Shown: piece by piece, positions 13,547 to 37,686 of the stretch
Position numbering within the stretch: position 1 is the first letter of the stretch
Layout of the letters: every line of letters begins with the position of its first letter
DNA from: an uncultured Lachnospiraceae bacterium
GTDB taxonomy: Bacteria; Bacillota; Clostridia; Lachnospirales; Lachnospiraceae
NCBI GenBank assembly: GCA_946414825.1
Contig: CAMKQB010000013.1
Location: 1 to 37,686 of the forward strand
Length of the DNA: 37,686 bases
Reading direction: 5' to 3'
Translations under genes and position numbers: made by a program
The notes under the pieces: generated by a model
The model's database searches: none
Seen by the model: the letters and a program-made list of their open reading frames with translations, nothing else
Told to the model about the DNA's origin: nothing

Positions 13547-14374
13547 ATGTTTTGGACTAGATTATTTAGCGGAATAGCATTAATTATAATAGCATTTGCC
13601 GTACTTTGGGTAGGTGGACCACTAACAGGAGTTGTGACGATGGCTCTTTCTCTTGTGGGTGTTTTCGAGCTATGCAGGGTCTACGGAATAGAAAGAAGAT
13701 CTCCAGGTATATTCGCATATATCTGGACGGTTTTATATTATGCGGTTCTTATTCTAGGTGGAATCATAGTAAATGGCTTCAGTCTGGTAGGACTGGCTAT
13801 GCCTGTTATGATCACATATCTGCTTGCAATACTGGCGGTATATGTTATCAGATTCCCTAAGTATCATGATAGAGAGATAATGGCTGCATTTATGTCCTTT
13901 TTCTATGTAAGCGTAATGCTGTCATATGTATTTAGAATAAGGGAAATGAAGAACGGTGGATATTTCGTCGTTCTGATATTTCTTTGCTCATGGGGAAATG
14001 ACACACTTGCTTATTGTGTGGGAGTTCTATTCGGTAAGCACAAGATGTCGCCAAAACTTAGCCCTAAGAAGAGCATAGAAGGACTGATAGGAGGAATACT
14101 GGGTGCTGGAGCGCTTGGGGCACTTTATGCATTCTTGCTGAAGGCTCAGATTCCAGAACTCACACATCCTCATCTTGTACTCTTTGCAGTATGCGCGCTT
14201 GGCGCGATACCTGCTGTTATCGGAGACCTTGCTGCATCAGCAATCAAACGAAATAACGATATAAAGGACTATGGCAAACTGATACCAGGCCACGGCGGCG
14301 TGCTGGATAGATTCGATAGTATGATATTTACAGCACCGATTATTTATTATCTGGTGAGGTTTGTGATTGGTTAA
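13547..14374 (+). CDS. cdsA: Phosphatidate cytidylyltransferase
   Basis: CdsA makes CDP-diacylglycerol from phosphatidate and CTP for phospholipid synthesis. It is an integral membrane protein with about seven to eight hydrophobic segments. The C-terminal signature is visible as GHGGVLDRFDSMIFTAP, and SPKKSIEGLIGG is another conserved block. I choose the start at 13547 (MFWTRLFSG), giving 275 residues, because GGTGGGG at 13534-13540 is well spaced from it. An in-frame ATG at 13514 lies inside uppS, has no ribosome-binding site and would add a polar tail before the first membrane helix. The normally adjacent dxr is pushed away by the three sugar genes. Confidence 0.94.
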   Translation: MFWTRLFSGIALIIIAFAVLWVGGPLTGVVTMALSLVGVFELCRVYGIERRSPGIFAYIWTVLYYAVLILGGIIVNGFSLVGLAMPVMITYLLAILAVYVIRFPKYHDREIMAAFMSFFYVSVMLSYVFRIREMKNGGYFVVLIFLCSWGNDTLAYCVGVLFGKHKMSPKLSPKKSIEGLIGGILGAGALGALYAFLLKAQIPELTHPHLVLFAVCALGAIPAVIGDLAASAIKRNNDIKDYGKLIPGHGGVLDRFDSMIFTAPIIYYLVRFVIG

Positions 14375-14411: not shown

Positions 14412-15302
14412 ATGAAGCGACTACTTATATCTGGAGGAACAGGAACAATAGGAAGCAGTCTGGTCAGGATAGCATCTGAAAAAGGATTCTTTGTGACAGT
14501 TCTTGTTAGAAAAGAATCACCTAGAATAGATAACATTCCTAAGGCTGATAATGTAGAAATAATAGAGTGTAATTTAGCTGATTATCAGAATCTGAGCCTA
14601 GATAAAGAATATGATAGCTTCATACATCTTGCATGGGATAAAACCTTCGGTGCCTCAAGAGATAATACTGATATTCAGATGCTTAATATTCAGTACACAC
14701 TAGACGCAGTAAGGCTTGCTTCTAGATGTGGCTGTAAGAAGTTTGTTGGACTTGGGTCACAAGCAGAATATGGTGTAAGTGAAAAGGCTTTATCGGTAGA
14801 TTCGCTTGTCAATCCTGAAAGTGGATATGGAATAGCAAAGTTTGCAGCTGGAAAGATGTCTGAACTACTTTGTAAACAATTAGGTCTTCAGTTTAACTGG
14901 ATAAGAGTTCTGAGTGTATACGGCCCCAATGATGCAGAGTATACACTTATCTCGTATGTGATAAATAGTTTAAAGTCTGGCAAGTCACCAGAGCTTACTA
15001 AGTGTGAACAGATATGGGACTACATTTATTCTGATGATGCTAGTGAAGCAATCCTATCAATCGAAGAAAAAGGTGTTGACGGTAGGTATTATCCACTTGG
15101 ATGTGGTGAGGGAAGACCATTAAAAGACTATATAGAAGAAATTAGAGATGTGTTAGAATCGGATGTTCCACTTCTCTTTGGGGCAAAAGAATATTATCCT
15201 CATCAACCTATGTATCTTGTTTCTGATAATGAGTGTTTAAATAAAGATACTGGATGGAAACCGAGATATAGTTTTAAAGATGGAATAAGTAAGTTAATTT
15301 AG
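14412..15302 (+). CDS. NAD-dependent epimerase/dehydratase-family protein (sugar nucleotide)
   Basis: An extended short-chain dehydrogenase of 296 residues. The NAD(P)-binding GGTGTIG is at about 8-14. The catalytic triad region shows SQAEYG (Ser near 113) and the YxxxK motif as YGIAK (about 137-141). The family acts on nucleotide sugars, as 4-epimerase, 4,6-dehydratase or 4-keto reductase. The short length and the C-terminal half resemble reductase or epimerase members, not the longer dehydratases. The exact reaction is not readable. It starts the first sugar insert between cdsA and dxr, with an AGGAG site eight bases before the ATG. Two following genes act on 4-keto-6-deoxy sugars in other bacteria, so a 4-keto reductase or epimerase role in the same route is plausible. 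Confidence 0.8.
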   Translation: MKRLLISGGTGTIGSSLVRIASEKGFFVTVLVRKESPRIDNIPKADNVEIIECNLADYQNLSLDKEYDSFIHLAWDKTFGASRDNTDIQMLNIQYTLDAVRLASRCGCKKFVGLGSQAEYGVSEKALSVDSLVNPESGYGIAKFAAGKMSELLCKQLGLQFNWIRVLSVYGPNDAEYTLISYVINSLKSGKSPELTKCEQIWDYIYSDDASEAILSIEEKGVDGRYYPLGCGEGRPLKDYIEEIRDVLESDVPLLFGAKEYYPHQPMYLVSDNECLNKDTGWKPRYSFKDGISKLI

Positions 15303-15346
15303 ATTATAGATTTATTAACAAATTGTAATATGAATGGAGAGATGAA

Positions 15347-15769
15347 ATGCACGTAGTTAAGTATATGTTTCAACCTCATGGAGATGAAAGAGGACAATTA
15401 ATAGCTCTTGAGGAGTTTAATGATATTCCTTTTAGAATTAAGAGAGTTTATTATATGTATGACACTGCTCCAGGGGTGATTAGAGGATATCATGCTCATA
15501 AGAATCTAGAGCAGATTTTAGTGTGTATTCATGGTAGTTGTAAAGTCAAGTTAGATAATGGTAAAGAGAAAAAAATTGTTCCTTTGGAAAAACCATATGA
15601 GGGCTTGTATGTTCCTAATAATATGTGGAGAGAAATGTTTGATTTTTCTCCTGATGCCGTGTTATTGGTTTTTGCTTCTGAAATATACGAGGAAGCAGAT
15701 TATATTAGAAATTATGATGAGTTTCTAGAGTTTATAAAGCAAAGTGATAATAATGATTCTGCTAAATGA
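15347..15769 (+). CDS. Sugar 3,4-ketoisomerase of the FdtA/QdtA (WxcM-like) cupin family
   Basis: A 140-residue single-domain cupin. The histidine pair in RGYHAHK (about 45-51), DERGQL (about 14-19) and the block [15 protein letters not shown] (about 99-113) match the family of FdtA and QdtA, which move the keto group of dTDP-4-keto-6-deoxyglucose from C4 to C3. The product is then aminated by a partner aminotransferase, which is the next gene here. FdtA and QdtA differ only in C4 stereochemistry, so I cannot tell a Fuc3N from a Qui3N route. A GGAGAG site precedes the start. Base composition is low in G+C (16 of 60 in the line starting at 15541). Confidence 0.87.
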
Positions 15770-15780
15770 GAAGGTGTGAA

Positions 15781-16875
15781 ATGAAGATACCATTTGTATC
15801 ATTTCGTCCTATGGAAAATGAACTTAATGATGAATTACATGATGCCTTTGAGCGGGTACTAACGTCATCTTGGTATATTGGTGGCAAGGAAGATGCGGCG
15901 TTTGAAGATGCTTTTGCAAGGTTTTGTAATGTGAAATATTGTGTTGGCACTGGAAACGGGCTTGATGCCCTAATGCTGATTCTTAAAGCCTTAAATATTG
16001 GTGAAGGTGATGAGGTAATTGTTCCATCCAATACTTATATTGCAACTGCTTTAGCTGTAACATATGTCGGAGCTACTCCTATTTTTGTAGAACCTGATAT
16101 TAATACCTTTAATATTGATCCTAATAGAATAGATGAAGCTGTAACACCTAGAACTAAGGCTATTATACCAGTTCATCTTTATGGTCAAGCTTGCGATATG
16201 GATTCAATTATGAAAAAGGCTCGACATTACAATTTAAAGGTTGTAGAAGATTGTGCTCAAGCTCATGGAGCAACTTATAAAGGAACTAAGATAGGTACTT
16301 TTGGTGATGCAGCAGCATTTTCTTTTTATCCAGGTAAAAATCTAGGTGCATTAGGTGATGCAGGGGCTGTTGTAACAAATAATGAGGAAATTGCTAAAAA
16401 GGTTCGTGCATTAGGTAATTATGGTTCGGATTACAAATATCACCATATTTATAAGGGTAATAACAGCAGATTGGATGAGTTGCAAGCTGCATTGTTGAGC
16501 GCTAAATTACCTCATCTTGAAAGAATGAATGTTGAGAGAAGACGTATAGCAGATAGATATTTAACTGAAATAAATAATGTAAAGATTATACTCCCAACGG
16601 TTTTTATAGATTCGGTTCCAGTATGGCATGTTTTTGGAATAAGATGTAATGATAGGGATGCTCTTGAAAAGGAATTGAATGATAAAGGAATATCAACAAA
16701 TAAGCATTATCCTATTCCGATACATCTTCAAGAATGTTATAAAGACCTAGGTTTTAAAGAGGGAGATTACCCAATCAGTGAAGAGATAAGTAGGACAGAG
16801 CTTAGTATACCGCTATACTATGGTATGACTGAAGAGGAGATAAGTTATATTATTGCCTCGATAAATTCATTCTGA
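15781..16875 (+). CDS. DegT/DnrJ/EryC1-family sugar aminotransferase
   Basis: A PLP-dependent aminotransferase that, in this family, puts an amino group on a keto sugar nucleotide using glutamate. The PLP lysine lies in [15 protein letters not shown] (Lys near 187), close to FdtB/QdtB enzymes that aminate C3. GTGNGLDAL (about 59-67), [12 protein letters not shown] and [10 protein letters not shown] are further family blocks. I choose the start at 15781, giving 364 residues, because AAGGTG ends four bases before it. An in-frame ATG at 15766 would overlap the preceding gene without a ribosome-binding site. With the upstream cupin this is the classic FdtA-FdtB pair for a 3-amino-3,6-dideoxyhexose. 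No acetyltransferase (FdtC/QdtC) follows. Confidence 0.92.
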
Positions 16876-16911
16876 AAAACTAGTTATAAACTATGAGGAT
16901 AATATAGAAAT

Positions 16912-18060
16912 ATGAAAAAAATATCAATTATAGGTTCCACCGGCTCGATAGGAACTCAGGCTCTTGATATAGTCAGAGCAAATGATGACCTGAAGGTTGT
17001 GGCACTTGCATGTGGAAGTAATATAGAACTACTTGAGAAACAGGCTAGGGAATTTAGTCCCGAGCTTGTTTCTGTTATGTCTGAGGAAGCTGCGGAAACA
17101 CTCAGAGTAAAACTTGCTGATACAGGTATTAAGGTTGTTTCAGGAATGAAGGGACTCTGCGAGGTTAGTGCAATAGATTCAGCGGACATGACGCTTACGG
17201 CTGTAGTAGGAATGATAGGAGTAGAACCAACTCTTGCCGCGATAGAGGCAGGAAAGGATATAGCGCTTGCTAATAAGGAGACTCTAGTTACTGCGGGACA
17301 TCTTGTTATGAAAGCAGCAGCAGAAAAGGGTGTAAGGATACTTCCTGTAGATAGTGAGCATAGTGCTATATTCCAGAGTCTTCAGGGAAATCAAAATAAT
17401 AAAATATCAAGAATTCTTCTAACAGCATCTGGTGGACCATTCAGAGGACGCACTAGAGATGAACTGGCGGATGTAACTATAGAACAGGCGCTTAATCATC
17501 CTAACTGGTCCATGGGACCAAAAATTACCATCGATAGTGCTAGTATGGTTAATAAGGGGCTGGAAGTAATAGAAGCGCACTGGTTATTTGATACCGATAT
17601 AGAGGATATAGAGGTTTTGATTCAGCCTCAGAGTATTATTCATTCGGCGGTTGAATATGAGGATGGAGCGGTGATAGCACAGCTTGGAACTCCAGATATG
17701 AAGCTTCCTATTCAGTATGCTTTCTATTATCCTGAGAGAAGATATCTGGCAGGTGAGAGACTAGACTTCACTAAAATTAGTGGAATCATAATAGATAAGC
17801 CTGATTATGAGGCGTTCCTCGGTATACCACTTGCAAAAAAAGCGAGTCAGATAGGTGGTTCTATGCCAACAGTTATGAATGAAGCAAACGAGCATGCAGT
17901 TGCGGCATTCCTTGCTGGCAAGATCAAGTTCCTGGAAATATATGACATGATTGAGTACGCTATGTCACAGCACAAGGTTATTCCGGATGTTGACCTGAAG
18001 GGAATACTTGAAACAAGAGACGAGACAGACGCGCTATTACGTGCAAAATATGGGGTATAA
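16912..18060 (+). CDS. dxr: 1-deoxy-D-xylulose 5-phosphate reductoisomerase
   Basis: Dxr converts DXP to 2-C-methyl-D-erythritol 4-phosphate with NADPH, the first committed step of the MEP isoprenoid pathway. The NADPH-binding GSTGSIG is at residues 8-14. LANKETLVTAG (about 119-129) and PVDSEHSAIFQ (about 144-154) carry metal and substrate ligands, and HPNWSMGPKITIDSA is also conserved. The length of 382 is normal. The ribosome-binding site is weak (GAGGA about 16 bases upstream). It resumes the housekeeping order after the sugar insert and is followed 35 bases later by rseP. Confidence 0.96.
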   Translation: MKKISIIGSTGSIGTQALDIVRANDDLKVVALACGSNIELLEKQAREFSPELVSVMSEEAAETLRVKLADTGIKVVSGMKGLCEVSAIDSADMTLTAVVGMIGVEPTLAAIEAGKDIALANKETLVTAGHLVMKAAAEKGVRILPVDSEHSAIFQSLQGNQNNKISRILLTASGGPFRGRTRDELADVTIEQALNHPNWSMGPKITIDSASMVNKGLEVIEAHWLFDTDIEDIEVLIQPQSIIHSAVEYEDGAVIAQLGTPDMKLPIQYAFYYPERRYLAGERLDFTKISGIIIDKPDYEAFLGIPLAKKASQIGGSMPTVMNEANEHAVAAFLAGKIKFLEIYDMIEYAMSQHKVIPDVDLKGILETRDETDALLRAKYGV

Positions 18061-23200: not shown

Positions 23201-24854
23201 TCCTCTTCCTGCACATTATCTATGTCCTAATTGCTTCTATACGGAGTTTGATTCTGAAAGAGTTAAGAAGTATGCAGGTGAATGTGGTTGTGATATGCCG
23301 GATGCAGTATGTCCTAAGTGCGGAACTAAGCTGAAGAAGGAAGGACAGGATATACCATTTGAGACCTTCCTTGGATTTAAGGGTGATAAGGAGCCAGATA
23401 TAGATCTTAATTTCTCTGGTGAGTATCAGGCTAAGGCTCATGCCTTCCTGGGTGAACTCTTTGGAAAGGATCACTCTTTTAAGGCGGGAACAGTAGGTAC
23501 TGTCGCAGAAAAAACTGCAATGGCCTATGCCAGAGATTATTGTAAATATAGAGGTCTAGATAAGAGATGGCAGGAGATGGAGAGACTGTCTAAGGGATGT
23601 ATCGATGTTAAGAGAACAACAGGTCAGCATCCTGGTGGAATCATAGTTACTCCAGATGATGAAGAGATATATAGCTTCACTCCGGTGCAGAGACCAGCTA
23701 ATGATCAGACAGTTGATATAATAACAACACATTTTGATTATCACTCCATTGATCATAACCTTCTGAAGTTTGATATTCTTGGTCACGATGATCCAACTAT
23801 GATTAGACGTTTGGAGGATCTGACAGGAGTAAAGGTTAAGGATATACCATTTGATGATTCTAATGTTATGCAGCTCTTCAAGAGTACAGAACCACTTGGT
23901 ATAACACCGGAGGATATGGGTGGTATACCACTTGGATGCCTGGGTGTGCCAGAGTTTGGAACAGAGTTCGCTATGCAGATGCTTATAGATGCAGATCCTA
24001 AGAGCTTTTCGGACCTTGTTCGTATTGCAGGTCTGTCTCACGGAACTGATGTATGGCTCGGCAATGCTCAGAAACTTATTCAAGAAGGTACATGCGAACT
24101 TTCAAGTGCTATTTGTTGTCGTGATGATATCATGGTTTATCTCCTGAATCAGGGACTTGACTCTGGTGATGCATTTACCATTATGGAACGAGTTCGTAAG
24201 GGACTCGTGGCTAAGGGAAAGTGTAATGAATGGCCTGACTTTAAGAAGACCATGGAGGAACATGGTGTACCGGACTGGTACATATGGAGCTGTGAACAGA
24301 TTAAGTATATGTTCCCTAAGGCTCACGCAGTTGCGTACGTAATGATGTCATGGCGTGTTGCTTACTATAAGCTGTACTATCCACTAGCATACTATGCAGC
24401 TTACTTCAGTATCAGAGCTGATGACTTCTCCTATGAGGTTATGTGTCAGGGCGAGGATCATCTGGATACAGTGCTGGAAGAGTATAAGGCAATGGATAAG
24501 AATGCTCTATCAGCTACAGAGAAAGGACTCCTTAAGGATATGAAGATAGTTAAGGAGATGTATGCTAGAGGTTTTGATTTTATGCCACTGGATATATATA
24601 GAGCTAAGGCTGACCGTTTCCAGATAATTGATGGCAAGATTATGCCAAGCTTTCTCTCTATCGATAAAATGGGAGAGTCTGCAGCTTTCCAGATGGAAAA
24701 GGCAGCACAGGGCGGACGTTTCCTGTCACAGCAGGAACTTAAGGATAGAGCTAAGGTGTCTGGAACAGTTATAGAGAAAATGGAAGAGCTTGGAATACTG
24801 GGTGATATGCCAAAGACCAGTCAGCTGACATTTGATTTTTTGAGTGAGGAATAA
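20262..24854 (+). CDS. polC: DNA polymerase III alpha subunit, PolC type
   Basis: PolC is the main replicative polymerase of low-GC Gram-positives, with built-in 3'-5' proofreading. Domains in order: an N-terminal region with an acidic, poorly conserved stretch (about 165-235); an OB-fold (about 265-355); the first part of the PHP domain with HLHTKFSEMD (near 373); the exonuclease with FDIETTGL (near 465), HNATFDT and HHRACDDA; a zinc site with CPNC, CGC and CPKC (about 987-1023); and the polymerase palm Asp pair in PDIDLNFSGE (near 1045). The 1530-residue length is a little above the common 1430-1460. The start overlaps ispG; an AAGGAA 13 bases upstream is a weak ribosome-binding site. It is normally the end of this operon, and here three unrelated genes follow. 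Confidence 0.98.
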   Translation: MKTDGFKKFKEVFPGIELDDDINGYFEDVEVTRVEMVSSTTTIYVRIQSKHLIARPNIKKAEEALRLFVFGDEAGNVKIEDRYLLSGQYNLKNLMHIYGDSIMDELRDTSAIEHALVKMSDIKCKDNLITIQMIEGKLSRERKADIEIFFNHLFATKFGMNINTSVKLVKRIEEEEEPEEEEVTVEGLPEKEDKLKEVEKQLEEAYDADSNEVSINNSMMPKKSTEAPKKKDYKARAEEFKRKNYNDMDCFYGKNTEGDIVPISSIIEELPDYVVIKGQITSIEEKPIRNNKTILKVYITDFTDTIGFKLFIANDDLDPLKDDLKVGSFVMVKGIPMKDTYAKELILEKVDGVKKIQDTRPKREDNAPVKRVELHLHTKFSEMDAVTPVEGAVQRALDWGHPAVAITDHGVVHGFTEADHYLHSKDAKGDKDNFKLLFGVEGYFVDDIKTLVMNSHGQSLDSEYVVFDIETTGLSFKFCKIIEIGAVRLDTAGNVIDRFSEFVNPEVPIPYHIEKLTSINDNMVKDADTIDKVLPRFLKFCEGAMLVAHNATFDTTFIRVNAKRLGLTYDFTALDTMTLAYIYLPELGRYTLDRLTHYFNLTNAHHHRACDDAEVTSEIFVCLMKMINESGAKTVDDLNKMGKASSDKIKKAKSYHGIIFFKNETGRTNLYRLISEAHLNYFNRRPRIPMSLIEKYREGLIVGSACSSGLLYSALLDGAEDEEIERLVRFFDYLEIQPVGNNMYLVNDEKEDRINSIEDLQDINRQIVELGEKYDKPVVATGDVHFLDPEDAISRAIILDSVRIRQMNKNTREKVLAEVEEKVAQGLIDPHADPVKDEMEKQPPLYFKTTEEMLEEFSYLGEEKAYEVVVTNTNLVASWMEKMSPVRPDKAPPRIENSDQILRKICYDKMHEMYGPEPPEIVKNRLDKELDSIIGNGYSVMYIVAQKLVWKSNEDGYLVGSRGSVGSSFAATMAGITEVNPLPAHYLCPNCFYTEFDSERVKKYAGECGCDMPDAVCPKCGTKLKKEGQDIPFETFLGFKGDKEPDIDLNFSGEYQAKAHAFLGELFGKDHSFKAGTVGTVAEKTAMAYARDYCKYRGLDKRWQEMERLSKGCIDVKRTTGQHPGGIIVTPDDEEIYSFTPVQRPANDQTVDIITTHFDYHSIDHNLLKFDILGHDDPTMIRRLEDLTGVKVKDIPFDDSNVMQLFKSTEPLGITPEDMGGIPLGCLGVPEFGTEFAMQMLIDADPKSFSDLVRIAGLSHGTDVWLGNAQKLIQEGTCELSSAICCRDDIMVYLLNQGLDSGDAFTIMERVRKGLVAKGKCNEWPDFKKTMEEHGVPDWYIWSCEQIKYMFPKAHAVAYVMMSWRVAYYKLYYPLAYYAAYFSIRADDFSYEVMCQGEDHLDTVLEEYKAMDKNALSATEKGLLKDMKIVKEMYARGFDFMPLDIYRAKADRFQIIDGKIMPSFLSIDKMGESAAFQMEKAAQGGRFLSQQELKDRAKVSGTVIEKMEELGILGDMPKTSQLTFDFLSEE

Positions 24855-24874
24855 ACTATTCCGGAGGTGGATAG

Positions 24875-26701
24875 ATGAATATTAGACTAGCAGATTATGT
24901 TGCGAACTTTTTAGTAGAACATGGCGTTACAGATGTGTTCAGTGTTGTTGGAGGAGGTGCTATGCACTTAAATGATGCACTAGGACATAATACTGAGCTT
25001 CATGTCACATATAATCATCATGAACAAGCCTGCGCTATTGCAGCAGAAGCCTATGCTAGACTAGATAATAAAATAGCTGCAGTATGTGTTACGACTGGGC
25101 CAGGTGGAACGAATGCGCTTACTGGGGTCTTAGGTGGTTGGCTGGATTCAATCCCAATGTTTATAATTAGTGGACAAGTTAGATATGATACTACAGCTCG
25201 TTATGCAGAAAGAATAACAGGTGCAAAAATAAGAGCGTTAGGTGATCAAGAATATGATATAGTAAAGTCGGTTCAAAATATGACTAAATACTCAACCATG
25301 ATTGAGAATCCTGAGGATATTAGATATGCTCTTGAGAAAGCATGGCATCTAGCAACATCGGGACGTCCAGGCCCAGTATGGATAGATATACCGCTGAATT
25401 TTCAAGGGGCATCTATCGATACCGAAAATTTAAAGGGATATGATCCTGCTGAGGATGATATGAATCTTCCACCTGAAGTTGGAATGGATGTTATTAAAGA
25501 GGTTATAGAAAAGATTCAAAAAGCTAAACGTCCTGTTTTACATGCTGGATATGGAATCAGATTGTCTGGTGCATATGATATATTCAGAAGGGTGATTAAG
25601 AAACTAAATATTCCAATAGTAACATATTGGAATGCTGTAGACCTAATAGAGACTGATAATGATTTGTATTGTGGCAGAGCTGGAAATATGGGAGATAGAC
25701 CTGGTAACTGGGCAATACAAAATGCAGATTTGATTTTGGCTATAGGGACAAGAATATCTATTAGACAAGTGGGTTATGATTGGAAAACTTGGGCTAGAGA
25801 AGCGGAAGTTATAATGGTTGATATAGATGAAGCGGAGCTTAAGAAGCATACTATTCATGTGGAAATGCCTATATGGGCAGATGCCAAAGACTTCCTAAGT
25901 AAACTGGATTATATGCTAGATGAAAAAGCTATACAGAAAGATGAATGGCTGGAAATCTGCAAAAAATGGAAATATGATTATCCAGTAGTTCAGGATAAAC
26001 AAAGGGAAGATACAGAAGATGGTGCGAATGTTTATGCATTTATAGACTATTTAAGTAGTTGTCTTCCGGATAATAGTCTCACTGCAGTTTCGAATGGTGC
26101 TTGTTGCGTTGTTGGTAATCAAGCTTATATTATAAAAAAGGGTTCTAGAATGGCTAATAATAGTGCTGTAGCATCTATGGGATATGGACTTCCTGCAGCT
26201 ATAGGTACATGTATAGGTGGGGGAAGAAGAGAAACCATCTGCTTAGAAGGGGATGGTTCTATAATGATGAACCTTCAAGAACTCCAAACGATTATTACTA
26301 ATAGACTTCCTATTAAAATCTTCTTGATTAATAATAATGGATATCATTCTATTAGATTAACACAAACGAATCTTTTTAATGATCATTCGAAAATTGGAAT
26401 AGGACCTGAGTCTGGAGATTTATCATTTCCTCAATTTAGTAAAATAGCTGAAGCTTTTGGATTTGATTATTATGCAGCTCATAATAATCAAGAAATGAGG
26501 GATGTTGTTGATAAAGTGATAAATCTTGAAGGCCCTTTATTTGTTGAAATATTTACTGATACTGAACAGGTTTGGGAACCTAAGAGTAGTACAAAAAGAC
26601 TGGATGATGGTTCACTAGTGAGTTCACCTTTGGAAGATCTCGCACCTTTTCTTCCGAGAGAGGAACTCGAAAACATTATGATAGTTCCTATGATTAATTA
26701 A
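24875..26701 (+). CDS. ThDP-dependent enzyme of the acetolactate synthase-like family
   Basis: A 608-residue protein with the three-part fold of ThDP decarboxylases and ligases. The N-terminal PYR domain has the ThDP-activating Glu in NHHEQACAIAAEAYAR (E50), and GPGGTNALTGV is a conserved block. The C-terminal PP domain has the ThDP/Mg motif EGDGSIMMNLQEL (GDG near 459) ending in NNNGY. Biosynthetic IlvB would sit with ilvN, ilvC or leu genes, and none is here. ThDP enzymes of this family are also found in sugar clusters; YerE of Yersinia transfers an acetyl unit from pyruvate to a 4-keto sugar. A GGAGGTGG site supports the start. It opens the second AT-rich insert, 20 bases after polC. Confidence 0.85.
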   Translation: MNIRLADYVANFLVEHGVTDVFSVVGGGAMHLNDALGHNTELHVTYNHHEQACAIAAEAYARLDNKIAAVCVTTGPGGTNALTGVLGGWLDSIPMFIISGQVRYDTTARYAERITGAKIRALGDQEYDIVKSVQNMTKYSTMIENPEDIRYALEKAWHLATSGRPGPVWIDIPLNFQGASIDTENLKGYDPAEDDMNLPPEVGMDVIKEVIEKIQKAKRPVLHAGYGIRLSGAYDIFRRVIKKLNIPIVTYWNAVDLIETDNDLYCGRAGNMGDRPGNWAIQNADLILAIGTRISIRQVGYDWKTWAREAEVIMVDIDEAELKKHTIHVEMPIWADAKDFLSKLDYMLDEKAIQKDEWLEICKKWKYDYPVVQDKQREDTEDGANVYAFIDYLSSCLPDNSLTAVSNGACCVVGNQAYIIKKGSRMANNSAVASMGYGLPAAIGTCIGGGRRETICLEGDGSIMMNLQELQTIITNRLPIKIFLINNNGYHSIRLTQTNLFNDHSKIGIGPESGDLSFPQFSKIAEAFGFDYYAAHNNQEMRDVVDKVINLEGPLFVEIFTDTEQVWEPKSSTKRLDDGSLVSSPLEDLAPFLPREELENIMIVPMIN

Positions 26702-26719
26702 TAGAAATGGAGACTTCTT

Positions 26720-28297
26720 ATGGGGTTTATTTATTTACTTGATTGTACTCTTCGAGATGGCGGTTATATAAATGACTGGAATTTTGGAGTGGATACAATA
26801 AAAGGTTTTGGAAAAAAAATAGCACAAACGGGTATAGAAATATTTGAAGTGGGATTTATAAAAGGTAAAGATTATGATCCTAATAAGTCAATATTTCCTG
26901 ATATAGAATCCTTTACCAATGTAATTGTTCCTAAATCAGAGGGAATGATGTATGTTGGAATGCTAGATATGAATTCGCCGATTCCGCTAGATAAAATAAC
27001 TCCATATGATGGTACTTCAATAGATGGTATACGAGTTATATTTAAAAAAGATAAAATAGATGAAGCTTATAACTATTGTAAGAGAATAAAAGAACTTGGC
27101 TATAAGGTGTTTGTAAATTTTGTTGGAACGGACTTATACACAGATAAGGAATTTGTCGATGGTATTGAAAGGTTTAATTCTATTGAACCATTTGCAGTTT
27201 CAATAGTGGATAGTTTTGGACTAATAAAAAGGAAACAGTTTCTTAGATTAGTTTATTTAGCTGATAATAATTTGAACGAAGATATAGCTTTAGCTTATCA
27301 TGCGCATAATAATTTACAGCAGGCTTTCGGAAATGCCGAAGCACTTGTTGAAATGAACTTAAATCGAGATTTGATAATTGATGCTTGTGTTTTTGGAATG
27401 GGAAGAGGAGCAGGTAATTTAAATCTAGAATTATTCGCGGAATATATGAATGAGAATTATAATACTCACTATAAGATTGAACCTATGCTTGAAATAATGG
27501 ATGAGTATTTAAATGAAATATATCAAACAAAGTTTTGGGGTTACTCTTTACCTCTTTATGTATCTGCTTCGGCAGGCTGCCATCCGAATTATGCTATTTA
27601 TCTAGCTGAGAAAAATACACTTACTGTTAAAGCATTTAATGAATTGCTGCAACATATACCTAAGGAAGATAAGTCAAGATTTAGTAAAGAAAAAGCGGAG
27701 AAGTATTATAGGGAATATCAGGAAAAACATATAGATGATAAAGATGTAATTTATTATTTGTCGAAAGAATTCCAGGATAAGAATATTTTGGTTTTAGCGC
27801 CAGGTAAATCAATACTATCTTATAAAGATAAAATACACGAACTAAGAGCTGATGATAATTCTGTTGTAATTGCTGCAAATTTTTTGGCAGAAGAGTTTAG
27901 ACCAGATTATATATTTAGTAGTAACATGAGGAGATATATAAAAATCCAAGGAAAGACAAAAGCTAAGTGTATAATAACTTCAAATATGAAGGAAAGTGAA
28001 TCATATGATTATATGGTTAATTTTTCTAGCTACTCAGTTAATAATCCGGATATAATTGATAACTCTGTGTTAATGTTATTAAAATTACTTATGGCATGTA
28101 ATGTTAAGAGTGTTAAGATAGCTGGCATGGATGGATATTTAGTTTCTGATGATGATGTTTATTATAATGATGAACTAAATTACGATTTTACTAAAGATGC
28201 AAAAAAGAGAAATCTTTTGATTTCTGAAGAGTTAAGAAGTATTAAAGAGCATATGAAGCTTATGTTTATCACGCCAACAAATTACAAAATCAGTTAA
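26720..28297 (+). CDS. Pyruvate-aldolase-like DRE-TIM protein with an extra C-terminal domain
   Basis: The first 290 residues are a DRE-TIM (HMG-CoA lyase/4-hydroxy-2-oxovalerate aldolase superfamily) barrel. The motif LDCTLRDGGY gives the catalytic Arg12 and metal ligand Asp13; HAHNN (H194, H196) supplies the other ligands, and GMGRGAGNLNLE is a conserved turn. These enzymes form or break a carbon-carbon bond at pyruvate. A helical stretch (about 270-345) follows. The last 180 residues contain VLAPGKSI (near 355), VVIAANF, PDYIFSSN and KIAGMDGY, a pattern I associate with DUF115/6-HMP-kinase-like domains of surface-glycan proteins; that assignment is tentative. Total length 525 is far above the 340 of plain aldolases. 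The gene is very AT-rich (15 G+C of 60 in the line at 27721). Confidence 0.78.
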   Translation: MGFIYLLDCTLRDGGYINDWNFGVDTIKGFGKKIAQTGIEIFEVGFIKGKDYDPNKSIFPDIESFTNVIVPKSEGMMYVGMLDMNSPIPLDKITPYDGTSIDGIRVIFKKDKIDEAYNYCKRIKELGYKVFVNFVGTDLYTDKEFVDGIERFNSIEPFAVSIVDSFGLIKRKQFLRLVYLADNNLNEDIALAYHAHNNLQQAFGNAEALVEMNLNRDLIIDACVFGMGRGAGNLNLELFAEYMNENYNTHYKIEPMLEIMDEYLNEIYQTKFWGYSLPLYVSASAGCHPNYAIYLAEKNTLTVKAFNELLQHIPKEDKSRFSKEKAEKYYREYQEKHIDDKDVIYYLSKEFQDKNILVLAPGKSILSYKDKIHELRADDNSVVIAANFLAEEFRPDYIFSSNMRRYIKIQGKTKAKCIITSNMKESESYDYMVNFSSYSVNNPDIIDNSVLMLLKLLMACNVKSVKIAGMDGYLVSDDDVYYNDELNYDFTKDAKKRNLLISEELRSIKEHMKLMFITPTNYKIS

Positions 28298-28325
28298 TAG
28301 AACAATGAAAGGAAATGATCATTAT

Positions 28326-29351
28326 ATGAGTAAAATAGTAACATTTGGAGAAGTGATGCTTCGTTTATCTCCAACTGGATACAATAGATTATTTCAAAAT
28401 GATAATTTACAGGCTACTTTTGGAGGGGCTGAGTTAAATGTTGCTGTTTCACTAGCTGAATTTGGTGAGGATGTAGTATATGTAACAAAGGTACCTGACA
28501 ATCAGATAGGAGATGGTGCGATTTCAAATATAAAATCCTTTGGAGTTGATACAAGTGCTATTGTTCGAGGTGGTAGTAGACTTGGCATATTCTTCTTAGA
28601 AAAAGGTGTCAATTTGAGACCAAGTGTTTGTATTTATGATAGGAACAATTCGTCAATACAACAGTCAGACGTAGCGGATTTTGATTGGGATGAGATCTTT
28701 GATGGAGCAAAGTGGTTTCATTTTACTGGAATAACTCCAGCTCTTGGAGAAAACTTAGTTGATATCTGTCTAAAAGCTTGTGAGAAAGCTAAAGAAAAAG
28801 GACTAACTATATCCTGTGATTTGAATTATAGGAGTAAACTATGGAATCAGGAAACTGCCGCAAAAACCATGAAAAAGTTTTGTCCTTATATAGATCTCTG
28901 TATAGCTAATGAAGAAGATGCTCAAAATTATTTTGGTTTAAGTTCTGAAAATACTGATGTATATTCCGGAAAAATAAATAAAGATGGTTATGAGATTATC
29001 GCTAAAGAATTAGTAGAGAAATATGGATTTAAATATATGGCTTTTACCTTGCGCACTTCTATTTCAGCAAGTGTAAATAAATGGGCAGGTATGCTATATG
29101 ATGGGAATAATTGTTATTTCTCTAAAGAATATCATATTGATTATATAGTAGATAGAGTCGGCGGTGGTGATAGTTTTGGCGCGGGACTAATATATTCGAT
29201 GATAAATAATTACGGCGCACAAGAGGCTATAGAGTTCGCTGTTGCTGCTTCTGCGCTTAAGCATAGTATTGAAGGAGATTTTAATAGGGTTACGGTGAAA
29301 GAAATCAATGATTTACTTCAAGGAGACGCTTCTGGAAGAATTAAAAGATAA
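28326..29351 (+). CDS. PfkB-family sugar kinase, 2-keto-3-deoxygluconate kinase-like
   Basis: A ribokinase-fold enzyme of 341 residues that phosphorylates a sugar or sugar acid with ATP. The N-terminal FGEVMLRLSP and GGAELNVAVSLAEFG are family signature 1. The C-terminal signature 2 is DRVGGGDSFGAG with the catalytic Asp near 281. Among PfkB members, FGEVMLRLSP and the GGAELNVA block are closest to 2-keto-3-deoxygluconate kinases, but substrates in this family are hard to predict. I choose the Met at 28326 because the sequence there aligns with the family start. The upstream ATG at 28305 has no ribosome-binding site, while AAAGGA lies between the two. It follows the aldolase-like gene closely, so a shared pathway is likely. 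Confidence 0.85.
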   Translation: MSKIVTFGEVMLRLSPTGYNRLFQNDNLQATFGGAELNVAVSLAEFGEDVVYVTKVPDNQIGDGAISNIKSFGVDTSAIVRGGSRLGIFFLEKGVNLRPSVCIYDRNNSSIQQSDVADFDWDEIFDGAKWFHFTGITPALGENLVDICLKACEKAKEKGLTISCDLNYRSKLWNQETAAKTMKKFCPYIDLCIANEEDAQNYFGLSSENTDVYSGKINKDGYEIIAKELVEKYGFKYMAFTLRTSISASVNKWAGMLYDGNNCYFSKEYHIDYIVDRVGGGDSFGAGLIYSMINNYGAQEAIEFAVAASALKHSIEGDFNRVTVKEINDLLQGDASGRIKR

Positions 29352-29370
29352 TTGTTAAGAAACAGTAAAC

Positions 29371-29399
29371 TTGATATTTAATGATAAATTGGTTATAGT
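29371..29399 (+). promoter_or_regulatory. Sigma-A-type promoter for the ireB-ruvX operon
   Basis: TTGATA (29371-29376) and TATAGT (29394-29399) are separated by exactly 17 bases. Both boxes differ from consensus at one position. It lies in the 106-base gap between the kinase gene and ireB, giving the housekeeping block independent transcription from the inserted genes. No terminator is visible in that gap. Confidence 0.65.
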
Positions 29400-29457
29400 A
29401 ACTATGTATGTTTAGAATAATATATAGTGAAGGTTTAGTTAAAAGGAAAGGAAGAGT

Positions 29458-29724
29458 ATGGGAAATTACGACGGACAGCATACACAGGATGTAAACATCG
29501 AGAGAGAGTATACTATTGAAGTTTCTGATATAGTAGCGGATGTTTATGAGGCACTTTCAGAAAAGGGGTATAATCCTGTGAATCAGATTGTTGGATATAT
29601 CATGAGTGGCGATCCAACTTACATCACGAGCTATAAGGGAGCTCGCAGTCTTATAATGAAGGCTGAAAGAGATGAGATACTGGAACTCCTTATGGAAAAC
29701 TATATAGAAACGAGACTCAAATAA
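29458..29724 (+). CDS. ireB: IreB-family regulatory phosphoprotein (UPF0297/YrzL)
   Basis: A small 88-residue cytoplasmic protein. YTIEVSDIVADVYEALSEKGYNPVNQIVGYIMSGDPTYI-type sequence (about 18-58) and YKGARSLIMKAERDEILE are strongly conserved in this family. In Enterococcus, IreB is phosphorylated near its N-terminus by the PASTA kinase IreK and dephosphorylated by IreP, and it affects cephalosporin resistance. Here Thr9 and Thr19 are possible sites. The kinase and phosphatase homologues are in the same window (4401 and 3664). The neighbour ruvX is the usual one and overlaps as TAATG at 29722-29726. Confidence 0.95.
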   Translation: MGNYDGQHTQDVNIEREYTIEVSDIVADVYEALSEKGYNPVNQIVGYIMSGDPTYITSYKGARSLIMKAERDEILELLMENYIETRLK

Positions 29725-34929: not shown

Positions 34930-36645
34930 ATGCGATTAACGGGTGCGAGAAAGAAGATACGTATCGGTGATCTGCTTGTAGAAGCTGGTGCTATTACAGA
35001 CGAGCAGCTCCAGGAAGCGCTTGCGAAGCAGAAAGAAGAAGGTGGTATGCTTGGTAATATCATCATGGATCTTGGCTTCATATCAAGAGAGCTTCTGATT
35101 ACAGTTCTTACTACCCAGATGGGTATCGATTATTGTGAGGTTAGAACAGTTCAGATAGATGAAAATGTTGTCGGTCTGGTATCAAAGGATCTGGTGCAGA
35201 AGTACAAGGCTATGCCAATAGGTTATGCTGAGGACAATCCAAATATGCTCCAGGTTGCTATGGCCGATCCTATGGATCTGATGGCAATAGATGACATCAG
35301 CATATCTAGTGGTCTCCAGGTAGAGCCACTTCTATCATTCCAAGATGATCTGGAAAATGTAATAGGTAAATACTACGGTAGTGCTGAAGCTATGGAGGCT
35401 GCTGAAGCTTATAAGCTTGAGATGGGTTCTGGTGCTGATGAAGAAGGAGATGGCTCTAATGAAGAGATAGATAATTCTCCTATTGTACTCCTGGTTAATC
35501 AGATAATAGAAGGTGGAGTTAGACAGAGGGCTTCCGATATTCATATCGAAGCACTTGAATCAAACGTTCGTGTACGATACCGTATAGATGGTGCTCTGAA
35601 ACAGGTTATGACATACGAGCTAAGTATTCTTCCAGCTATTACTGCTCGTATCAAGATTATCGGTGGTATGGATATAGCAGAGAAGAGAAAACCTCAGGAT
35701 GGTCGTATCACTATAATAGTAGATAGAAAAGAGTTTGATGTCCGTGTTTCTATCCTTCCTACAGTATTCGGAGAGAAGACGGTTATGAGACTTACCTCCA
35801 AGGATGGCCTTACTAAACCAAAGGCTGGACTTGGATTCTCACCAGAAGAGCTAGAGGTATTCGACGGAATACTCAGTAATCCGCATGGAATCATTCTGGT
35901 TACAGGACCTACAGGTTCTGGTAAATCAACAACACTGTATACATCCCTCTCTGAGCTTAATACTGAAGATGTTAATATCATCACTGTAGAAGACCCTGTT
36001 GAGGCGAATATTAATGGTATCAATCAGGTACAGGTTAATGTTAAAGCGGAGATGACCTTCGCGGCAGCTCTTAGATCTATCCTTCGTCAGGACCCTGACA
36101 TAATAATGATAGGAGAGATTCGAGACGGCGAGACAGCTCAGATAGCAGTTCAGGCCGCTATCACCGGTCACTTGGTTGTTTCTACACTACATACGAATTC
36201 TGCTGCGTCTACAGTAACTCGTGTAATTGATATGGGTATTGAACCATATGTTGCAGGCGACGCACTTGTTGGAGTTATAGCACAAAGACTTGTTCGTAGA
36301 CTTTGTACATCCTGTAGAGTTCCAAGACTTGCAGATGATGACGAGAAGGTAGTTCTCGGAGTTAAGGATCCGGAGGATGACGTAGTTATCTACGAACCGG
36401 AAGGATGTCCACTATGTAATGATACAGGGTACTCTGGACGAATCGGCGTTTATGAAATGATGCCTGTATCGAAAGCACTTCAGGCAGTTATAGCTAGGGG
36501 TGCTACAGCAGACGTTATTGAGAAACAGGCGCTTGAAGAAGGAATGTCAACTCTGAAGATGTCAGCTGCCAGACACGTACTTGCAGGAACAACATCTATA
36601 TCAGAGATGAAGAAAATCGTTTATACGACTGGAGATACTTACTAA
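34930..36645 (+). CDS. pilB: Type IV pilus assembly ATPase (PilB/GspE family)
   Basis: PilB is the hexameric cytoplasmic ATPase that drives pilus extension. The N-terminal domain (about 1-150) is a GspE/MshEN-type c-di-GMP or platform-binding domain, with ALAKQKEEGGMLGNIIMDLGFIS. The ATPase has RASDIHIEAL (about 199), Walker A GPTGSGKST (about 325-333), the Asp box DPVEANI, Walker B LRQDPDIIMIGEIRDGETA and HTNSAASTVTR. A zinc site of two CxxC pairs, LCTSCR (near 458) and GCPLCND (near 492), marks extension ATPases. The length of 571 is normal. AAAGGAGAAGGG precedes the ATG. PilT follows, so a retractile type IV pilus is likely and a plain type II secretion system less so. Confidence 0.95.
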   Translation: MRLTGARKKIRIGDLLVEAGAITDEQLQEALAKQKEEGGMLGNIIMDLGFISRELLITVLTTQMGIDYCEVRTVQIDENVVGLVSKDLVQKYKAMPIGYAEDNPNMLQVAMADPMDLMAIDDISISSGLQVEPLLSFQDDLENVIGKYYGSAEAMEAAEAYKLEMGSGADEEGDGSNEEIDNSPIVLLVNQIIEGGVRQRASDIHIEALESNVRVRYRIDGALKQVMTYELSILPAITARIKIIGGMDIAEKRKPQDGRITIIVDRKEFDVRVSILPTVFGEKTVMRLTSKDGLTKPKAGLGFSPEELEVFDGILSNPHGIILVTGPTGSGKSTTLYTSLSELNTEDVNIITVEDPVEANINGINQVQVNVKAEMTFAAALRSILRQDPDIIMIGEIRDGETAQIAVQAAITGHLVVSTLHTNSAASTVTRVIDMGIEPYVAGDALVGVIAQRLVRRLCTSCRVPRLADDDEKVVLGVKDPEDDVVIYEPEGCPLCNDTGYSGRIGVYEMMPVSKALQAVIARGATADVIEKQALEEGMSTLKMSAARHVLAGTTSISEMKKIVYTTGDTY

Positions 36646-36666
36646 TATTAATTATTTACATATAAT

Positions 36667-36697
36667 TGTTATTCTGAGGGCGAAGCCCGAAGAATTT
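36667..36697 (+). repeat. Dispersed hairpin repeat, copy 8 (pilB-pilT gap)
   Basis: ATTCT (36671-36675) pairs with AGAAT (36691-36695), then GA/GA, a four-pair inner stem GGGC/GCCC (36678-36681 with 36685-36688) and loop GAA. A TTTTAT run follows. It is the longest and most stable copy and could act as a partial terminator between pilB and pilT. It ends 33 bases before the pilT start. Confidence 0.85.
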
Positions 36698-36730
36698 TAT
36701 AAAAACAAGAAAGATTGGGGGTAACTAATA

Positions 36731-37686
36731 ATGATAGATATGGACGAGCTCCTCAGCCTGGCGGTTGATGAGAATGCATCAGATATCCATTTGGCAGTTG
36801 GTATTCCACCTAAGTTTAGAATAAATGGTGGACTTCAGGAGGTTGATGTACCACCTCTTTCAGCCAGCGAAGCTGCCGAGAGTATCGGTATGACAATGAA
36901 TGAGAGACAGAAAGCTATCCTTAAGGATAGAGGTGAGTGCGACTTTGCTTACTCAGTAGGTGATAAAGGAAGATTCCGTGTTAATGTCTATATGGACCGT
37001 GGTAACATGGCTGCTGCATATAGAAAGATTGATACAATCATCCCTAAGCCTGAACAGCTGGGCCTTCCACCTGCAGTAGTAGATCTCTATAAGAAGAAGA
37101 GAGGACTGGTCCTGGTTACAGGACCTACAGGTTCTGGTAAGTCGACAACACTTGCTTCAATTATTAATAAGTGTAATGAAAATACAAGTAACCACATTAT
37201 TACTCTTGAGGATCCTATCGAGTACATACATCATCATAAGAAATCGATAGTTAACCAGAGAGAGCTTGGAATGGATACACTTTCTTTCGATAATGCGCTT
37301 AGAGCTGCACTTCGTGAGGATCCAGATGTTATCCTCGTAGGAGAGATGCGTGATCCAGAAACTATTCAGATAGCTATCACAGCTGCTGAGACTGGTCACC
37401 TCGTATTCTCGACACTACATACTATCGGTGCTGCGGCTACTGTAGACCGTATCATCGACGTATTCCCTCCACACCAACAGCAGCAGATACGTATTCAGCT
37501 TGCGATGGTTATTGAGGGTGTTATATCACAGCAGCTTATTCCTACAGCTGACGGACATGGTAGATGCGCAGCCTTTGAGGTCATGCTTGCGACGTCTGCT
37601 ATTAGAGCTCAGATCCGTGAAGGAAAGACTCATCAGATAGAGTCATCTATACAGACATCGCGTAATGTCGGAATGGTTACAATGGA
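36731..37686 (+). CDS. pilT: Type IV pilus retraction ATPase PilT, 3' end outside window
   Basis: PilT powers pilus retraction, which gives twitching motility and DNA uptake. The reading frame is open from the ATG at 36731 to the last base (318 complete codons) and the stop lies beyond the window. ENASDIHLAVG (about 14-24), Walker A TGPTGSGKST (about 130-139), the Asp box LEDPIEYIHHHKKS, Walker B REDPDVILVGEMRDPETI and HTIGAAATVDRIID match PilT; AIRAQIREGKTHQIES near the visible end is the PilT-specific block. There is no CxxC pair, unlike PilB. About 30-40 residues are probably missing. GGGGGT ends about eight bases before the start. An in-frame ATG at 36740 is possible but less well spaced. 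Confidence 0.95.
   Translation, partial: MIDMDELLSLAVDENASDIHLAVGIPPKFRINGGLQEVDVPPLSASEAAESIGMTMNERQKAILKDRGECDFAYSVGDKGRFRVNVYMDRGNMAAAYRKIDTIIPKPEQLGLPPAVVDLYKKKRGLVLVTGPTGSGKSTTLASIINKCNENTSNHIITLEDPIEYIHHHKKSIVNQRELGMDTLSFDNALRAALREDPDVILVGEMRDPETIQIAITAAETGHLVFSTLHTIGAAATVDRIIDVFPPHQQQQIRIQLAMVIEGVISQQLIPTADGHGRCAAFEVMLATSAIRAQIREGKTHQIESSIQTSRNVGMVTM

Follow-up and report, generated by a model that had tools for sequence, protein, structure and literature searches.

A predicted carboligase, an aldolase fusion and a PfkB kinase encoded side by side in a Lachnospiraceae genome: candidate parts of a dispersed route to a long-branched CDP-sugar

What do three adjoining genes for a thiamine diphosphate (ThDP)-dependent enzyme, a pyruvate-aldolase-like fusion and a PfkB kinase make together? 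This trio lies on contig CAMKQB010000013.1 of an uncultured Lachnospiraceae bacterium (GCA_946414825.1), of which we analyzed positions 1 to 37,686; this whole stretch of 37,686 nucleotides is called the window. We consider it fairly probable that these genes contribute to a dispersed pathway leading to a long-branched sugar activated by cytidine diphosphate (CDP). All reactions of this pathway are predicted, the aldolase and kinase steps most tentatively.

In the proposed pathway, other contigs encode RfbF, RfbG and RfbH, which would make a CDP-4-keto-3,6-dideoxyhexose. The aldolase would join pyruvate to an aldehyde, giving a 4-hydroxy-2-oxo (2-keto-3-deoxy) acid. The ThDP enzyme would then decarboxylate this acid and transfer its acyl chain to the ketone at C4 of the CDP-sugar. 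Comparable transfers are made by YerE from pyruvate and by ErwE from hydroxylated 2-oxo acids. A short-chain dehydrogenase/reductase (SDR) of the c5 group would reduce the new ketone, yielding an erwiniose- or caryophyllose-like sugar of a surface glycan. The PfkB kinase, which resembles 2-keto-3-deoxygluconate (KDG) kinase, would act on the 2-keto-3-deoxy acid; this could pull the reversible aldol step, or the phosphate could stay on the branch. In structure, erwiniose and caryophyllose are consistent with a 3,6-dideoxyhexose that carries a four- or six-carbon acyl chain. The features concerned are as follows.

24863..24869, + strand: ribosome-binding site of the ThDP gene, GGAGGTG, read from the sequence
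24875..26701, + strand: predicted YerE/JanthE-like ThDP-dependent carboligase, 608 aa; Pfam TPP_enzyme N, M and C; top solved chain 8rph, described as JanthE; Y297 and K567 retained
26720..28297, + strand: aldolase fusion, 525 aa, a DRE-TIM/HMGL-like domain (residues 1 to ~330) plus a ~190-aa C-terminal domain; Pfam HMGL-like, invariant motif residues and predicted model
27728..28294, + strand: C-terminal domain of the aldolase fusion; predicted model with pLDDT 92.6
28326..29351 (longer open reading frame from 28305), + strand: PfkB kinase related to KDG kinase, 341 aa; Pfam PfkB; solved chain 2afb
14412..15302, + strand: SDR of the c5 group, candidate ketone reductase in a YerF-like role; Pfam Epimerase; likeness to aldolase-adjacent SDRs

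An earlier sequence-only reading had described the three genes as contiguous, and the open reading frames (ORFs) lie as it described. According to the ORF list of the window, all three are intact, on the + strand and adjoining in the order ThDP enzyme, aldolase fusion, PfkB. The first gap is 18 bases (26702-26719) and the second is 28 bases (28298-28325) with the PfkB start taken at 28326. GGAG at 26709-26712 precedes the aldolase gene, and AAAGGA at 28308-28313 precedes the PfkB gene, for which 28326 is a better start than 28305. Compared with G337, a genome of the same genus, the aldolase had dN 0.0135 and dS 0.247 over 525 codons and PfkB had dN 0.034 and dS 0.465 over 348 codons; the ThDP gene, compared over its final 88 codons alone, had dN 0.019 and dS 0.215. 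All three genes are under purifying selection between these genomes, the ThDP gene as judged from those last 88 codons only.

The ligase and its neighbouring aldolases

Among solved chains, the ThDP enzyme matched 8rph best with 418 bits. The runner-up, acetolactate synthase I, was the best acetolactate synthase chain and reached 246 bits. 8rph is described as the structure of JanthE, a YerE-like enzyme (extract of PMC12188165), and the window enzyme is 37% identical to it. The alignment contains the catalytic Glu and the Asp-Gly ThDP motif. Five JanthE hot spots are named in the extract of PMC12188165; Y297 and K567 are kept in the window enzyme, and V121, Y268 and P293 are replaced by D, M and R, after a shift of the chain numbering by one that we worked out by hand. 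Y297 and K567 fall on gaps in the genome's own acetolactate synthase. We regard the YerE-like assignment as strong and highly probable, with ligase activity predicted from these sequence comparisons. This grading, like those of the aldolase and kinase roles below, was judged, not computed. The sequence-only reading had taken YerE, rather than IlvB or AlsS, as the model for the enzyme, which agrees both with this ranking and with the presence of its relatives in CDP-3,6-dideoxyhexose clusters.

Relatives of the ligase were surveyed in the best 80 loci from a contig scan. This set is not a census: several loci are on short contigs, and L157 duplicates the contig of L059. By tblastn, the ThDP gene was found in 80/80 loci, RfbF in 44, RfbG in 39 and RfbH in 50. 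RfbF, RfbG and RfbH, named here by curated models, are the makers of CDP-4-keto-3,6-dideoxyhexose. Three side features were seen by eye in this set. The ThDP ORFs of L128, L130 and L184 (850-862 aa) have an N-terminal cupin-like extension of ~250 residues. Dehydroquinate-synthase-like genes lie downstream of the ThDP gene in L137, L177, L186 and L191, the last two of which also have a sugar-kinase-like gene immediately before the aldolase.

The 12 loci nearest JanthE (L116-L127) are from Duganella, Rugamonas, Mucilaginibacter, Pedobacter, Verrucomicrobia and others. Here, as in the window, the ligase is near an HMGL-type pyruvate aldolase, and Rfb genes are near in 11/12. These clusters differ from the window in carrying DmpF and DmpG and in having CDG in JanthE against GDG in the window. 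DmpF was detected in 12/12 and DmpG in 11/12, with tblastn thresholds of at least 150 and 200 bits; the contig of the locus lacking DmpG (L125) stops at 13928, roughly where DmpG should start. No match to either gene was found in the other 68 loci at the same thresholds. The products of both genes in L126 score above curated cut-offs, DmpF as acetaldehyde dehydrogenase and DmpG (370 bits) as 4-hydroxy-2-oxovalerate aldolase; 4-hydroxy-2-oxovalerate is the product of DmpG. JanthE accepts this compound as a donor with benzaldehyde (extract of PMC12188165), and two further YerE-like enzymes that favour hydroxylated 2-oxo acids, ErwE and MMAR_2332, serve erwiniose and caryophyllose (extract of PMC12247030). 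Because DmpF and DmpG lie beside JanthE-like ligases and hydroxylated donors are preferred, the most economical reading of the window, by analogy, is that the aldolase feeds the ligase, with DmpG replaced by another aldolase from its superfamily.

Two described systems frame this proposal. ErwE of Pectobacterium atrosepticum is a YerE-like ligase that moves a chain derived from a hydroxylated 2-oxo acid onto CDP-4-keto-3,6-dideoxyglucose in erwiniose synthesis (extract of PMC12247030). The trio resembles it in that an aldolase would be expected to supply donors that are hydroxylated; compared with ErwE by description, the window differs in an aldolase with an added domain, a KDG-kinase-like gene, a Lachnospiraceae host and genes spread over several contigs. 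The yersiniose A system shares the CDP-3,6-dideoxyhexose acceptor and the ThDP ligase, but YerE favours pyruvate and moves at most a C3 chain (extract of PMC12247030). With its donors so limited, YerE would need no aldolase. The yersiniose A pathway includes an SDR reductase.

The aldolase family and its partners

The aldolase reached 64.3 bits against the Pfam HMGL-like threshold of 29, over residues 4-254 only, and carries the D..TLRD and HxH motifs. D8, T10, L11, R12, D13, E43, H194, H196 and N198 are invariant in 38 aldolase rows. The top Foldseek match of its predicted model (pLDDT 91.6) was 3dxi, titled as the N-terminal domain of a putative aldolase, followed by DmpG-type aldolases; the enzyme shares with DmpG the predicted fold and the metal-aldolase motif. 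For the C-terminal domain, which DmpG does not have, Foldseek found no PDB match at E <= 0.001. The best E was 0.0014, and the highest listed query TM-score, 0.46 to the sialyltransferase 5bo9, is not trustworthy. A weak MptE-like Pfam signal appeared in 11/38 members, with a best E of 0.0059. Aldolase homologues (E <= 1e-10) were present in 127/299 genomes of the family, many of them covering the aldolase domain only; matches over at least 430 residues numbered 69, in 65/299 genomes.

We compared 42 aldolase copies, from the window and 40 chosen loci (roughly 20 best-scoring besides the window, then 20 weaker matches, mostly on longer contigs), over 9.5 kb each way. ThDP and Rfb genes together accompanied 12 copies, a ThDP gene alone 8, and a CMP-ulosonate cytidylyltransferase without a ThDP gene 18; two copies, both of L033, had both partners and two had neither. 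The family thus has two nearly exclusive neighbourhoods, with ThDP genes or with CMP-ulosonate cytidylyltransferases. A ThDP gene lay within 9.5 kb in 22/42 copies, within 710 bases in 18 and within 120 bases in 11. In the genus of the window, 33 aldolase matches were found, the window included, and in 22 of the 30 loci read the ThDP gene adjoins the aldolase or is one gene off. A quick tree of 59 aldolase rows, 57 of them labelled, needed 5 partner changes, at least 3 of them forced by supported branches, against a mean of 17 after shuffling. All 9 input rows of the window's clade (support 100) are ThDP-linked. The carbon-chain-building role that the sequence-only reading had proposed for the aldolase is favoured, by analogy, through these ThDP-linked copies and the DmpF/DmpG parallel. 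Its predicted role as donor maker is reasonably likely. In two loci, G317 C51 (L228) and G311 C27 (L229), an aldolase 73% identical to that of the window was seen beside mutS/mutL-like or unrelated genes, with no ThDP gene in the stretch.

On the cytidylyltransferase side, positions 14735-17062 of a Verrucomicrobial contig (L126) encode an aldolase fused to a KdsB-type domain, that of a CMP-Kdo (3-deoxy-D-manno-octulosonate) synthetase, which scored above 2/5 listed KdsB-type cut-offs and below three. The same contig carries DmpF and DmpG near its ThDP gene. KdsA was above cut-off in 0/18 CMP-type genomes, with a control that passes in 4/14 known genomes. Strong NeuB matches (E below 1e-60) occurred in 11/18; NeuB and the aldolase were on separate contigs in all of these except G296, which is a single contig and has them ~326 kb apart. 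The aldolase could therefore be the sole ulosonate synthase in some CMP-type genomes, not demonstrably in all. As a tentative generalization, the family may give access, chiefly in Bacillota, to higher-carbon sugars without phosphoenolpyruvate (PEP), with pyruvate and an aldehyde forming a 2-keto-3-deoxy acid. This acid would be activated with CMP as an ulosonic acid, replacing KdsA- or NeuB-type synthesis, or be decarboxylated and ligated to a CDP-keto-sugar by a YerE-like enzyme; in the window's clade, the KDG kinase would phosphorylate it, and the phosphate may be on the branch.

The acceptor genes are in the window genome, on contigs other than the window's. On contig C84 are RfbF and, truncated where the contig ends, the first part of RfbG; contig C66 carries RfbH (74%) and a c5 SDR. 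Among 61 genomes of the genus, RfbG was present in 28/32 with the aldolase and in 14/29 others (Fisher p 0.001, only a guide because the genomes are kin). Two contig-truncated genes, one per side (G000 and G335), were scored present; without them the counts are 27 and 13. In L166, from the Lachnospiraceae isolate SIG296, a single cluster reads RfbF-RfbH-ThDP-aldolase-PfkB-SDR-glycosyltransferase-RfbG. The c5 SDR group occurs near ThDP and aldolase genes in relatives, and the window SDR is 47% and 43% identical to the SDRs that follow the aldolase in L034 and L035.

The kinase and the competing explanations

The top solved chain for PfkB was 2afb, a KDG kinase, with 383 bits, and the Tyr-Asp-Arg and Asn-Tyr-Arg segments are retained in the alignment. 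PfkB scored below two curated KDG kinase models (NF041332, 233.8 against 440 bits; NF040938, 115.5 against 400), as did the nearly canonical kinase of L166 (253.8 and 129.4). Relatives at E <= 1e-60 were found in 71/150 family genomes. Read by eye, a KDPG (2-keto-3-deoxy-6-phosphogluconate)-aldolase-like gene lay beside the kinase in 22/29 other loci and was missing among the called ORFs of 7. In the window the kinase is instead beside the aldolase fusion. At E <= 1e-80, PfkB occurred in 3/61 genus genomes, the window's included, directly after the aldolase each time. The adjacency that the sequence-only reading would have sought elsewhere is common for the ThDP and aldolase genes, whereas three loci only, in the window, G337 (L196) and SIG296, showed all three genes together. 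A fourth genome, G303 (L207/L227), has the aldolase-PfkB pair with a CMP-transferase alongside and no ThDP gene in the stretch. The aldolase-linked kinases do not form one clade (2 changes; bootstrap unsettled, G303 branch long), so the kinase was probably recruited beside the aldolase more than once, judging from sequence. No KDPG aldolase was found in the genomes of the window (91.6% complete), G337 (87%) and L166, any of which may be incomplete. Other genus members have a HAD phosphatase beside the aldolase in the kinase's place, which hints weakly at one phosphate step beside the reversible aldolase in each version. That the kinase substrate is the aldol product is an even call, and the least certain of the three roles.

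The kinase data are also the ground for a catabolic explanation, in which uronate breakdown supplies KDG for PfkB to phosphorylate, the aldolase stands in for the KDPG aldolase by cleaving the phosphorylated product, and the ThDP gene is incidental. The kinship of PfkB to KDG kinases, with their neighbouring KDPG-aldolase-like genes, and the KDPG aldolase not found in the three trio genomes speak for it. However, the aldolase family lies mostly amid sugar-nucleotide genes. The genus PfkB was found beside the aldolase only, and G303 has a KDPG aldolase elsewhere in its genome in addition to its aldolase-PfkB pair; for these two reasons we set a plain catabolic KDG pathway aside as improbable. 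Still more remote, in our estimate, is that the ThDP enzyme is an unusual acetolactate synthase or a branched-chain amino acid gene. Its top NCBIfam models are indeed acetolactate synthases, but the best, TIGR00118, gives 326.7 bits against a curated cut-off of 538.35. That cut-off is passed, with 698.4 bits, by another ThDP gene of the genome, which lies on contig C17 and is 29% identical to the trio enzyme, and JanthE outscores every acetolactate synthase chain; we therefore rejected this assignment. The remark in the sequence-only reading that no ilv genes are present holds at most for the window, given the C17 gene.

Two other explanations would keep the trio in sugar synthesis and divide it. 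The ThDP enzyme might take pyruvate, as YerE does (extract of PMC12247030), and add a two-carbon branch of the yersiniose type, with the aldolase a neighbour that serves another sugar. In 34/80 of the best ThDP loci, Rfb genes occur and neither the aldolase nor DmpF/DmpG is in the stretch, which is in its favour. Against it are the frequency with which the aldolase accompanies the ThDP gene, in the genus too, and aldolase lineages that follow their partner; we think it unlikely, though it merits more weight than the catabolic route. Alternatively, the aldolase might make a CMP-activated ulosonic acid here too, leaving the ThDP enzyme and PfkB to a second sugar. The 18 CMP-type copies, the aldolase-KdsB fusion of L126 and the CMP-transferase beside the G303 pair are in its favour. 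The window's own clade is ThDP-linked throughout, though, and the 9.5 kb on either side of the window aldolase contained no labelled CMP-transferase of the surveyed groups, the rest of the genome not having been searched. We give this explanation little credence.

Several observations count against the preferred reading of a long-branched CDP-sugar made by a dispersed pathway. The aldolase scored 53.1 bits with TIGR03217 (4-hydroxy-2-oxovalerate aldolase), far under the cut-off of 286, and was rejected as a DmpG ortholog on that score. In addition, the His found after the RDG motif of DmpG-type sequences, where it has a catalytic role, is missing from this aldolase (GGY instead of GSHA). Two of the 22 ThDP-linked aldolase copies (L069 and L070) are near a ThDP enzyme without the YerE marks. 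PfkB departs at 26 of 162 positions that are invariant in 27 other KDG-kinase-like rows; the corresponding numbers are 2 for L166, 29 for G337 and 33 for G303, and 0-5 for the other rows in a leave-one-out comparison. The HAD phosphatase beside the aldolase in other genus members counts here as well. No Rfb gene adjoins the trio in the window, and RfbG is seen no further than residue ~100, where its contig ends. RfbG was not seen in 4/32 aldolase-bearing genus genomes, and 20/80 of the best ThDP loci have no aldolase, Dmp gene or Rfb gene in the stretch examined.

In the literature we recognised nothing on an aldolase-ligase combination besides reviews of YerE-like enzymes, and a prior description of the aldolase link is possible. 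A published study is said to have predicted 200 YerE-like clusters. To our knowledge, long-branched sugars of this surface type are known from few bacteria only. The pathway had been called possibly undescribed in the sequence-only reading, which goes too far for the ligase, whose predicted chemistry is known from ErwE and MMAR_2332 (extract of PMC12247030). The ligase-aldolase pair is a variant of known ErwE-type chemistry; what is newest is the aldolase subfamily, which occurs with either of two partners. If the proposal is true, long-branched sugars of the erwiniose and caryophyllose type reach common Lachnospiraceae, and a testable function can be given to an aldolase fusion that is frequent and for which we found none assigned. 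If CMP-ulosonic acids can be made without PEP, the prediction of such sugars from genomes would change. Ligase-aldolase pairs could be used for the enzymatic synthesis of chiral tertiary alcohols.

Surroundings of the trio

The ThDP gene begins 20 bases past polC. Beyond PfkB are an ireB-like ORF, ruvX and an RNase J-like gene; these housekeeping names, polC included, are presumed from inspection by eye. The slot just past polC (24854-29460) is a recurrent insertion site. It holds the ThDP-aldolase-PfkB version here and, by eye, a HAD-aldolase-ThDP version in nine other genus loci (L209, L212-L215, L217, L218, L220 and L222).

The GC content at third codon positions (GC3) of the trio is 0.21-0.22, below that of 12 background genes of the window (0.28-0.38) and similar to that of a sugar block at 14412-16875 (0.21-0.25). 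No terminator-like site was found in the gaps between the trio genes, in a scan for consensus promoters and terminators that as a whole gave no excess above shuffles and is uninformative.

The low-GC3 block at 14412-16875, located before dxr, encodes the c5 SDR, an FdtA-like isomerase and a DegT aminotransferase. This suggests that a 3-amino-3,6-dideoxyhexose is made too. Genes resembling those of type IV pili, assigned by eye, occupy 34930-37684 of the window; here and in 3/40 loci (L041, L067 and L072) such genes are no more than 9.5 kb from the aldolase, and glycosylation of pilin is conceivable.

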